A stretch of DNA of 64,000 nucleotides from Deltaproteobacteria bacterium (lineage in GTDB: Bacteria; Myxococcota_A; Polyangia; Polyangiales; JADJMO01): assembly GCA_025363655.1 (NCBI GenBank), contig JANYDK010000108.1:1-64000 (forward strand). Reading direction: 5' to 3'. This document shows, one piece after another, positions 25,265 through 28,106 of the stretch; within the stretch, counting starts at the first letter, position 1, and each line of letters starts with the position of its first letter. The notes under the pieces were generated by a model. The model was not told the DNA's origin. It searched no databases and saw only the letters and a program-made list of their open reading frames with translations. Position numbers and translations under genes: made by a program.

Positions 25265-26329
25265 TTACTTTTTGAACACGTGCGAGACGTCACCAGCGCC
25301 GAAGCGCGCGATGACGCCGCGACGCTTCTTGCCGGGCGTGGCGCCGCTGAGGAAGTCGCCGCCGACCGCCCAAAATGCGTCGCCGCTCGCGTCGGCCCAG
25401 CTGCCGTGGAGATCGGTGAAAGGGGCGACGGCGAACTCGTCGATCCATTTTCCTGTCACGAGGCGCTGCTTGAGGCCACCGGACCCGACGAGAACGACGC
25501 TGCCCACTGCGTGCTTTTGTGCGTCGGGATCGGTCTCCGAGAACATGCAGGCAACGCCGTTGAGCTGGCTCGAGAGGGTGACGTCGATCTTCGACCACTT
25601 GGTGCCGTCGGAGTGGAGGACGTCGCCACCGCCGACCGCGTAGACGTCGCCGCCGTTGCAGCCATTGACCGTGAAGAGCGTTCCCGAGGCGAGGGGCGCA
25701 TCCTTCGACTCGAGCTTCCAAGCCGCTCCCTTGCGATGCCAAAGGGTGCCGGCTTCACCGACGACGTAGAGGTCGTTCGAGCTCGTGCCCCACACCTTGA
25801 AGAGCGAACGCCCAAGCGGCGCGTCGGGGAGCACTTCGGGATTCCACGCGGTGCCGTCGAAATGAAGGACGACGTCGTTCGGCGCTTTGGCGTCGCCGGG
25901 CGTTCCGCCGACGGCCCACGCGTCAGAAGCGCTGAACGCGAATACGCCCCAAATCGTGGCTGACGTGCCAGATACATAGGGAGTGAATGTTTTTCCGTTC
26001 CAGTGGCTGATGCGCCCTGCGGTGCCGACCATCCAGACGTCACTGCTCGAGGTGCCGTGCACCCACCAGAAGGACTCGGCGCCGCCGGCGTGCATGTCCG
26101 ACCAGGTGGTGCCGTCGAAGTGGAGGGCGAGCGCTTCTCCTCCGTTGCCGAGCGCGCCACCGACGGCGTACACGTCGCTGCCGGTGCCCCAGATGGAGAG
26201 GAGCGCGCGATCGAGCTCGGCGTCGAGCACCGTGCGCCAAGCTGCGGGAGCCGGCGCGGGCGTCGAGTCTTTCGGGCTGCACGAGAGGAGCGACAGCGCG
26301 GCGAGGATGAGGACCGAGGAAACGCGCAT
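25265..26329 (-). CDS. Lipoprotein with six WG/DVYAVG-type repeats (beta-propeller-like)
   Basis: 354 residues. The start at 26329 has GGAGG 6 nt upstream, overlapping the end of the preceding gene. The lipobox is at Cys17 (LLSC). Six repeats of about 50 residues share a core: IWGTGSDVYAVGG, VHGTSSSDVWMVG, FSASDAWAVGG, VWGTSSNDLYVVG, NGCNGGDVYAVGG and SWADASGDAFWAVGG. Each is usually followed by a strand ending in FDGTxW. This periodicity suggests a six-bladed propeller at the cell surface or in the periplasm, perhaps for binding. It is the last gene of a three-lipoprotein operon. Confidence 0.75.
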   Translation of the reverse strand: MRVSSVLILAALSLLSCSPKDSTPAPAPAAWRTVLDAELDRALLSIWGTGSDVYAVGGALGNGGEALALHFDGTTWSDMHAGGAESFWWVHGTSSSDVWMVGTAGRISHWNGKTFTPYVSGTSATIWGVFAFSASDAWAVGGTPGDAKAPNDVVLHFDGTAWNPEVLPDAPLGRSLFKVWGTSSNDLYVVGEAGTLWHRKGAAWKLESKDAPLASGTLFTVNGCNGGDVYAVGGGDVLHSDGTKWSKIDVTLSSQLNGVACMFSETDPDAQKHAVGSVVLVGSGGLKQRLVTGKWIDEFAVAPFTDLHGSWADASGDAFWAVGGDFLSGATPGKKRRGVIARFGAGDVSHVFKK

Positions 26330-26331
26330 CG

Positions 26332-27018
26332 TCATCCTCCGTCCGTCGCGTCCGAGCTGGCATCCGCATCGGGCGCTCCGGCGTCGGGCGGCGGCACGTA
26401 AGGATCGCAGTGCGAGCCGAGGATGTAGCCACCTTTGCAGATGCAGTGACACTCGTCTTCGCGACCCGACTCGTTGCACCGCGGAGTGATCGTCAACTTC
26501 TGGGTCGCGCTGCGGCCGTCTTTGTCGACGACGGTGACTTCGATTTGGTACGGCCGATCGAAGATGTCGGCGCTCGCCCATTGGTTCGGGCACACTGGCA
26601 CGTTCGAGAACGTCGAGATGTCGCTGTCGACGCTGGTGCCGAAGCCGTCGGCGTGCGGGACGAGGTTGATGGTGCGATTGTCGATGCGCACCTGCCTAGT
26701 GGAGAGATCGCGAATCGCTCCGTTGAGTCGAACGGTGCACGGGTCGAGATTCTTCGCCCGGACGCCGAGGAAGATCACGCGCCCGCCTTGTGGCGGAAAG
26801 AGGATCGAGAGGTCGCTCCCGTCGCGGAGAACCGTCGATTTTCCCAATGAATCACGCGCCGTCAGCTGCAACTCGACGGGCTTCGTCTTGTCTCCGAGGA
26901 ACGGCAACTGACACGCCGGAGCGCTGTCGTGCAATTGCGTGTCGTCGCTCGTGCAACCCCCGCCCGCGAAGACGAGCATGAGCGCGAACGGGAGTGCAAA
27001 CGCCGTCTTTAGAAACAA
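26332..27018 (-). CDS. Lipoprotein of unknown function, TTG start
   Basis: 228 residues. The best start is TTG at 27018, inside the last codons of the upstream gene. It gives a perfect lipoprotein signal, MFLKTAFALPFALMLVFAGGGC (lipobox Cys22); the next ATG (26979) would leave too short a signal peptide. The body has a beta-rich region with Cys pairs, then CHCICKGGYILGSHC (an EGF-like or short Cys knot) and a Pro/Asp/Ala tail. It overlaps the upstream gene by 10 bp and lies 2 bp from the downstream one, so the three genes are one unit. I know no function for it. Confidence 0.68.
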   Translation of the reverse strand: MFLKTAFALPFALMLVFAGGGCTSDDTQLHDSAPACQLPFLGDKTKPVELQLTARDSLGKSTVLRDGSDLSILFPPQGGRVIFLGVRAKNLDPCTVRLNGAIRDLSTRQVRIDNRTINLVPHADGFGTSVDSDISTFSNVPVCPNQWASADIFDRPYQIEVTVVDKDGRSATQKLTITPRCNESGREDECHCICKGGYILGSHCDPYVPPPDAGAPDADASSDATDGG

Positions 27019-28106
27019 GTGACGTTGTCGGCCTTGGGCCAGTAGTAGACGAAGGCGTTGCAGTGCTCGTTCTTCTCGACGATGGGGCCGAAGGTGTAGC
27101 AGCAGTCTTGCACCTCGGGCGCGGTGCCGTACTTGGTGGCGTCGAAGGTGTTGAGCGTGTCGCAGGTGACGGGCGCGGTCGGCGCGACCCAGTCGTAGCC
27201 GCACGAGTACCAAATGCCGGCGCCCGGTTGGACGGTGACGTCGAGCTTCGGCGACGTCAGCATCGGCGGATCGGCCCAGTTGAGCGACTCGTAGAAGTTC
27301 TTGCTGGCGTCCGGGGTGGTCGTCGAAGTGCCGTCCCACGAGTACATTTTGAAGTCTTTGCCGCGGCTGTGGAAGTGGCCGTTGGCGCCGATGATGTGCA
27401 CCGGCTCCTTGCTGTTGACCTGGCAGCTGCCTTCGAAGGTCGGGTGCGGGTTCTTCTGGCAGATGCGGATCGACTGCTTGGTCGCGAAGACGGTGCCGAG
27501 CTCGTACTTCGCCTCTGCGTCGGGCACCGTCCAGAAGTTGACGCGAACCTTGCCGAAGTCGGTCGGGGTCTTCTGCGACGTGGCGTTGACGAAGTGCGTC
27601 TGCAACATCAACCACTCGTCGGGGTTGAACTTGTTGACGACCCCGTCGGGGTAGGTCCAATCGATGAGGCCGTCGACCTGGCTGTTGGCGACGAGCGGCC
27701 AATCGGCCCAGTTCGAGCTCTTGAAGCACTCGCCGGCGCCGTTGGTGCCTTTGACGGTGCCCTTGGTCGGATCGAGTCCGACCACCGACTTCACGCGGAA
27801 GACGTTCATGTGGTGCGAGCCCTTCCGCTGCGCCGTCTGGATGCGGTGCAGGTTGACGGGCTTGGTCGCATCGAGGCCGGCAGCGGCGGCCAGATCGCCG
27901 ACCTTGAAGAAGTAACAGTCTTGCTCTTCGGTGCCGGCGGGGACGGCGACGTCTTCGGTCACGAGCTGGAAGCCCTTGCCCTTGTCGGGCGCGGCGAGGT
28001 CGGACGGGTCGACCGTGACGGGGGGCGGGTCGGCGGTCTTCGAGGAGCAGGCGAGCGCGGACACACCGAGGGCAAGAGCAGCGGTGGAGAGGAAAAAGCG
28101 ACGCAT
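27009..28106 (-). CDS. Copper type II (ascorbate-dependent) monooxygenase-like lipoprotein
   Basis: 365 residues; GGGAG lies 7-8 nt before ATG 28106. The lipobox is at Cys20 (ALAC). The layout resembles the PHM/DBH family: a first copper site with HH in KGSHHMNVFR and a later His in LMLQTHFVNATS, and a second copper site with HxH in NGHFHSRGKDF. The usual EMC-x-YYxP motif that supplies the Met ligand reads here NEHCNAFVYYWP, so Met is replaced by His. Family enzymes hydroxylate unactivated C-H bonds, but the substrate is unknown, and the substitution may alter or abolish activity. It heads an operon with two other lipoproteins. A copper-binding rather than catalytic role is possible. Confidence 0.75.
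   Translation of the reverse strand: MRRFFLSTAALALGVSALACSSKTADPPPVTVDPSDLAAPDKGKGFQLVTEDVAVPAGTEEQDCYFFKVGDLAAAAGLDATKPVNLHRIQTAQRKGSHHMNVFRVKSVVGLDPTKGTVKGTNGAGECFKSSNWADWPLVANSQVDGLIDWTYPDGVVNKFNPDEWLMLQTHFVNATSQKTPTDFGKVRVNFWTVPDAEAKYELGTVFATKQSIRICQKNPHPTFEGSCQVNSKEPVHIIGANGHFHSRGKDFKMYSWDGTSTTTPDASKNFYESLNWADPPMLTSPKLDVTVQPGAGIWYSCGYDWVAPTAPVTCDTLNTFDATKYGTAPEVQDCCYTFGPIVEKNEHCNAFVYYWPKADNVTCF

Follow-up and report, generated by a model that had tools for sequence, protein, structure and literature searches.

PHM and DBH, the animal relatives of the protein described here, make peptide hormones and noradrenaline, and it is unsettled why these enzymes keep a thioether, and not an imidazole, on the catalytic copper, a question that has been approached through engineered, mostly inactive variants. 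In PHM, the substrate carboxylate is anchored by Arg240, Asn316, and Tyr318; the amidating lyase partner of this enzyme is a beta-propeller, and DBH carries a DOMON domain. The copper ligands of PHM, as numbered in PMC6123673, are H107, H108, H172, H242, H244, and Met314, and the same paper places the two coppers of the open form ~11 Å apart. A search of a limited open-licence literature collection found neither a natural Met-to-His variant of the CuM site nor a myxobacterial member of the family. Here, we describe a lipoprotein of this fold family with His at the position of the CuM Met, together with a clade of relatives in which the His is fixed.

A lipoprotein with the predicted fold of PHM and DBH

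The gene of interest and the features of its product are listed in Table 1, with positions given for the window, i.e., the whole stretch of DNA that was analyzed (64,000 nt).

Table 1. Positions of the three genes and of the putative copper ligands in the window
Feature	Position	Strand	Basis or remarks
EHC-type copper monooxygenase-fold lipoprotein, 365 aa	27009..28106	minus	Reading frame, signal peptide, lipobox
Lipobox ...SALAC20 after the signal peptide			C20 kept in 17/17 aligned relatives
Second gene: lipoprotein, ~228 aa, conserved Cys-rich C terminus	26332..27018	minus	Inferred TTG start, in overlap with the stop of gene one
Third gene: 356-aa lipoprotein, Ycf48/HCF136-like beta-propeller	25265..26335	minus	ATGA overlap with the second gene
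His98-His99, CuH-type ligands (PHM H107/H108)	27810..27815	minus	67/67 EHC rows, 24/24 gap-free Met-type rows; aligned with DBH HHM
His171, third CuH-type ligand (PHM H172)	27594..27596	minus	67/67 EHC rows, 26/26 Met-type rows
His244-Phe245-His246, two CuM-type ligands (PHM H242/H244)	27369..27377	minus	67/67 EHC rows
Glu347-His348-Cys349, His at the CuM Met (PHM Met314)	27060..27068	minus	His in 67/67 EHC rows, Met in 26/26 Met-type rows

In Pfam, the protein matched PF03712 (Cu2_monoox_C) with 28.2 bits, above the cut-off of 23, and the N-terminal domain PF01082 with 17.1 bits, below the cut-off of 30; at an E-value of 0.01, 11 of 17 relatives matched the former and 7 of 17 the latter. No DOMON domain was found by Pfam in the 365 aa, and neither an NCBIfam scan of the protein nor a PDB search with its single sequence returned a match. 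A predicted structure, which had been suggested as a check of the original prediction of a copper monooxygenase-like lipoprotein, recovered the PHM/DBH fold. Specifically, the AlphaFold2 model (pLDDT 89.2, pTM 0.85) had DBH (3.2e-13) and PHM (6.2e-13) as its best Foldseek matches and aligned best with PHM 6ALA (chain 6ala_C; VIA Z of 23.6, rmsd 3.2, 268 aligned) and also with 1PHM (VIA Z of 21.6, rmsd 3.8, 271 aligned), with the first unrelated fold reaching a Z of only 9.3. The product of 27009-28106 thus has the predicted two-domain jelly-roll fold of PHM and DBH and, as a lipid-anchored protein, would be located on the outside. The slightly higher Z for closed (6ala_C) than for open (1PHM) conformers was considered as a sign that a closed conformation is a hallmark of the clade, with a hint of a coupled dicopper site, and this idea was rejected since a Met-type control (L027) behaves alike: its model (pLDDT 82.3) reached Z values of 23.8 with 4zel_A, 23.5 with 6ala_C, and 21.0 with 1PHM. 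The preference for the closed conformer, being common to the control, therefore carries no evidential weight.

Within its own genome, the protein is the sole full-length match to itself, with a second match that is partial and weak (E-value of 0.0027). Two more PF03712 proteins are encoded in the same genome (C113 and C39), and both read EMC.

A histidine at the position of the CuM methionine

Among solved chains, human DBH (4ZEL) was the best match for a profile built from the 17 relatives (E-value of 0.012). This alignment brought HHM, the later His, HxH, and EMC all into register and placed His348 over the Met, as did a profile-profile comparison with 21 Met-type paralogs (probability of 100, E-value of 9.8e-49). 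The original prediction had described, without naming a strand, HH, His, HxH, and EHC in the order known from PHM and DBH, and this order is borne out at residues 98-99, 171, 244/246, and 347-349 on the minus strand. Its central claim, that a His replaces the Met ligand, is likewise supported by the DBH and paralog profile alignments and by clade-wide fixation (see results below). In the 67 aligned relatives with His at this position (the EHC rows), the CuH site of three His is present throughout (67/67); the CuM site of two His and a Met is changed, with both His kept and the Met replaced by the equivalent of His348 in all 67. As read from the aligned sequences, the ligand set is 3-His plus 3-His, i.e., the five expected His and His348 at the place of the CuM Met. 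Because the CuM Met is missing and the PF01082 score lies below the cut-off, we place the protein in the PHM/DBH fold family as a variant of the His type and call it neither a PHM nor a DBH.

Fixation and distribution of the EHC motif

A scan of the genomes of 84,980 species yielded 67 loci. Across the loci collected for the alignment, the profile found 115 frames; 94 of these were aligned, and 21 were dropped (13 duplicates and 8 shorter than 200 residues). At the CuM Met position, the 94 aligned frames have His (67), Met (26), or Val (1). All 67 His rows, among them isolates of Sorangium and Minicystis with complete genomes, retain His98, His99, His171, His244, His246, Glu347, Cys349, and Asn350, and the clade keeps every other ligand down to ~30% identity. 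The codon for the His is CAC in 69 and CAT in 4 of the 73 distinct sequences. Given EHC in 67/67 relatives and this synonymous variation, the motif reflects neither chance nor a base error.

Two trees were built, both without the column that holds the CuM Met or His. The first placed the 67 His rows on a single branch (SH-aLRT of 99), and the second, comprising 85 rows (five Bacteroidota rows added; six rows that were decayed or sat on long branches, and eight near-duplicates, omitted by choice; LG model without mixture), split 60 His rows from 25 Met rows with a support of 100/99. Whether the His is fixed in a clade had been posed as a check of the original prediction, and it is: 67/67 distinct relatives, on one branch with a support of 100/99. 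As the trees are unrooted, the direction from Met to His rests on the Met found in PHM, DBH, and the remaining family. The best explanation for the pattern of residues is that the CuM Met was replaced by His once in evolution and has been retained ever since.

The lone Val row (L023, 375-1859; genome G012, contig C1031) reads EVC, with HG for HH and R.R for HxH, so that three of the five other ligand His are also gone. Dropping several ligands together in this manner is, judging from its residues, how real decay of this copper fold looks.

The motif recurred in later searches. Among 29 frames from later loci (L131-L159), 28 had EHC, several of them repeating earlier ones, and one had EMC. When 377 Myxococcota genomes were searched with the profile, 57 matched at an E-value of 1e-25; 30 places in 29 genomes scored at least 294 bits, the rest scored at most 147, and all high-scoring ones were EHC. 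In a Bacteroidota-side sample of 345 genomes, 12 matched, with the His type present in two (G411 and G621). Clade members from Bacteroidota read EHC (L183), EHD (L184), and EHF (L196, a fragment), i.e., the equivalent of His348 persists in L184 and L196, where the neighboring Cys, which by analogy with PHM would form a disulfide, is lost. One contig titled Bifidobacterium breve (L086) groups among the myxobacteria and is probably mis-binned or mislabeled. On another, myxobacterial contig, one Met-type and one His-type member lie ~3.2 kb apart (L084:1433-2785 and L084:5962-6990).

Gene neighborhood

The EHC gene is the first of a tight three-gene unit, followed by a lipoprotein and then a beta-propeller lipoprotein, and the three are presumably transcribed as an operon. 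A homolog of the second gene was found at 47 of 65 loci by tblastn and at 50 by profile, and at 41 it comes immediately after the EHC-type gene in the same orientation; a homolog of the third gene is downstream on the same strand at 30 of the 65. The other window genes tested (an alpha/beta hydrolase, SMC, and three more frames) were near the relatives at 0 of 65 loci within the fetched flanks. No match to an enzyme family was found for the downstream partners. The third-gene profile matched Ycf48-like structures (E-value of 1.2e-5), and a Pfam search of 14 third-gene members found no family that matched more than one. An analogy with PHM and its lyase, which we considered for the third gene, was rejected on the same data since the profile gives Ycf48-like proteins and no lyase.

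At the Bacteroidota loci, the neighbors are secreted FG-GAP/ASPIC proteins (Pfam on two of these proteins, in L098, which is the same place as L198). In one 15-kb stretch (L198, G411), an intact His-type member and a CxnCH lipoprotein occur together with several proteins of the FG-GAP type, and a partial second His-type member (EHF) stands at the contig end.

Candidate electron donors in Met-type and His-type members

Of 32 Met-type proteins from Myxococcota, 27 have a CxxCH heme c motif in front of their copper domains, against 0.21 expected by shuffling; the observation concerns the Met-type PF03712 proteins of L104-L113, L115-L130, and L032. Six carriers were scanned, yielding four weak cytochrome c matches in Pfam, all below the curated cut-off. 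These proteins look like fusions between a cytochrome c and a copper monooxygenase, and the arrangement suggests that they take electrons from cytochromes and not from ascorbate. The motif was absent from the EHC frames (0/105, duplicates included), which leaves them with no evident source of electrons.

In two non-Myxococcota genomes (Bacteroidota and Ignavibacteria loci), the EHC-clade gene is close or next to that of a small, lipoprotein-like CxnCH protein, and a similar small CxnCH protein is encoded just upstream on two myxobacterial contigs (L093 and L094). Four such proteins were scanned, giving one weak match to PSCyt1 (E-value of 0.01) and one to a cytochrome (E-value of 0.077), both under the cut-off. 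Their motif suggests that they are cytochromes, and a CxnCH protein nearby could act as the electron donor.

Residues around the altered site and possible functions

The surroundings of the ligands are also distinct in the EHC clade. The residue between the two CuM His is Phe in 67/67 EHC rows; of the 26 Met-type rows, 17 have Met there and 5 have Thr. Phe245, Asn350, Trp150, and Gln178 are invariant in the 67 EHC rows and specific to the clade, Trp277 is kept in 67/67, and Gln169 in 66/67. The best reading of these alignments is that the fold of the type II copper monooxygenases occurs here in a variant form, with a 3-His plus 3-His ligand set under strong selection, and the retention of six ligand positions across very divergent sequences favors a working metal site over decay. 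The protein is probably still a dicopper redox enzyme. We lean, by a modest degree, toward a lipid-anchored dicopper redox protein of the PHM/DBH fold with a Met-to-His CuM site, held in a small envelope complex with both adjoining lipoproteins. Under this proposal, both three-His sites would still bind copper, as the conservation of the ligands suggests, and one domain would relay electrons, while the other may activate oxygen or peroxide at its three-His copper. That redox activity persists is suggested by how strongly the ligands are conserved, and the envelope complex would join the protein to the products of the second and third genes. Counting against this proposal are the reported inactivity of Met-to-His tyramine beta-monooxygenase, the lack of the heme c motif in the EHC frames, and the PF01082 score below the cut-off; the neighbors, moreover, point to no substrate.

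A quite different possibility is that His348 belongs to the second shell and that the sulfur ligand of CuM is supplied by another Met, either Met167 or Met100, which directly follows HH; we consider this very improbable. A different Met at the ligand position had been named as the finding that would overturn the original prediction, and none was found at the sequence level, where the 67 aligned EHC rows hold no invariant Met column. The commonest Met of the clade, Met100 of HHM, beside the other copper site, is present in 66/67 EHC rows vs 6/26 Met-type rows, and residues of both sites come together in the closed conformer of PHM according to PMC6123673. However, Met100 is replaced by Phe in L011, and L150, L152, L154, and L158 have Leu or Val in its place, so it is no obligatory stand-in ligand; Met167 is present in 60/67 EHC rows and absent in 7, and the likeness of the model to the closed conformer, which the Met-type control shares, is nothing specific to the clade.

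Other readings accept His348 as a ligand. Hydroxylase activity may have been lost, leaving a surface copper store, buffer, chaperone, or sensor in which the old ligands hold Cu(I)/Cu(II); this we regard as unlikely, though deserving of weight, since engineered Met-to-His enzymes have reportedly lost activity, the EHC frames lack the heme c motif, and the downstream partners lack an enzyme family match. Yet the ligands of catalytic type are all kept, as are Gln169, Asn350, and Trp277 at the frequencies given above, with no obvious role in storage, a protein that only binds copper should have drifted in the way L023 has, and no copper-handling partner was found among the window neighbors tested. 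There is a slim chance that the second site has switched metal, becoming a three-His zinc (or iron) site of hydrolase-like or structural use: three-His sites are common for zinc, and with the soft sulfur ligand a donor favoring Cu(I) has been removed. Against such a switch, the CuH site, useless without redox chemistry, is fully kept (67/67), and the fold and ligand spacing are as in PHM and DBH. We give similarly little credence to a six-His (3+3) dicopper enzyme whose all-His CuM would perform O2 or peroxide chemistry unlike that of the Met enzymes, possibly through a domain-closed, type-3-like Cu2O2 center. The dicopper redox protein with a Met-to-His CuM site remains the reading that we prefer. 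The original prediction had offered either changed chemistry at an all-His second site or a copper-binding protein with lost hydroxylase activity, and the sequences by themselves fit both. The exchange is informative in either case: His can sustain the chemistry when suitably surrounded, or the fold now serves a different copper function.

Comparison with known systems

PHM shares with the protein the two-domain fold (1PHM) and the five copper-ligand His out of six ligands, and differs in its CuM Met314, where His is found here, and in sequence (~14% identity); the present protein is a bacterial lipoprotein without a fused lyase domain. Asn350, which follows the motif Cys, presumably matches Asn316 of PHM. 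Going by motif spacing, Asn350 would lie at Asn316, Phe352 at Tyr318, and Asn242 at Arg240 (PHM numbering). DBH and tyramine beta-monooxygenase have the same order and spacing of ligands, with DBH 4ZEL as the best PDB profile match, but carry Met at CuM. The nearest sister group (support of 82), the Met-type bacterial PF03712 paralogs L027 to L030, likewise has HH, H, and HxH, whereas it shows EMC instead of EHC, HMH instead of HFH, and a motif Cys that is followed by Met instead of Asn. Tyrosinase and hemocyanin, which are type 3 copper proteins, also hold two coppers with three His each, but in an unrelated fold.

The same ligand position has been altered in the laboratory, as M471H in tyramine beta-monooxygenase and M314I in PHM (1YI9). 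Hess, Klinman and Blackburn reportedly found in 2010 that the Met-to-His form of tyramine beta-monooxygenase was inactive and that residue 471 was not bound to the reduced copper. In comparison with these changes to animal enzymes, the His described here is natural and fixed, and its surroundings have been remodeled. The EHC clade is a natural experiment in which the same swap was made and retained with the other ligands intact, and nature may supply a working form of an exchange that reportedly inactivates the enzyme of animals.
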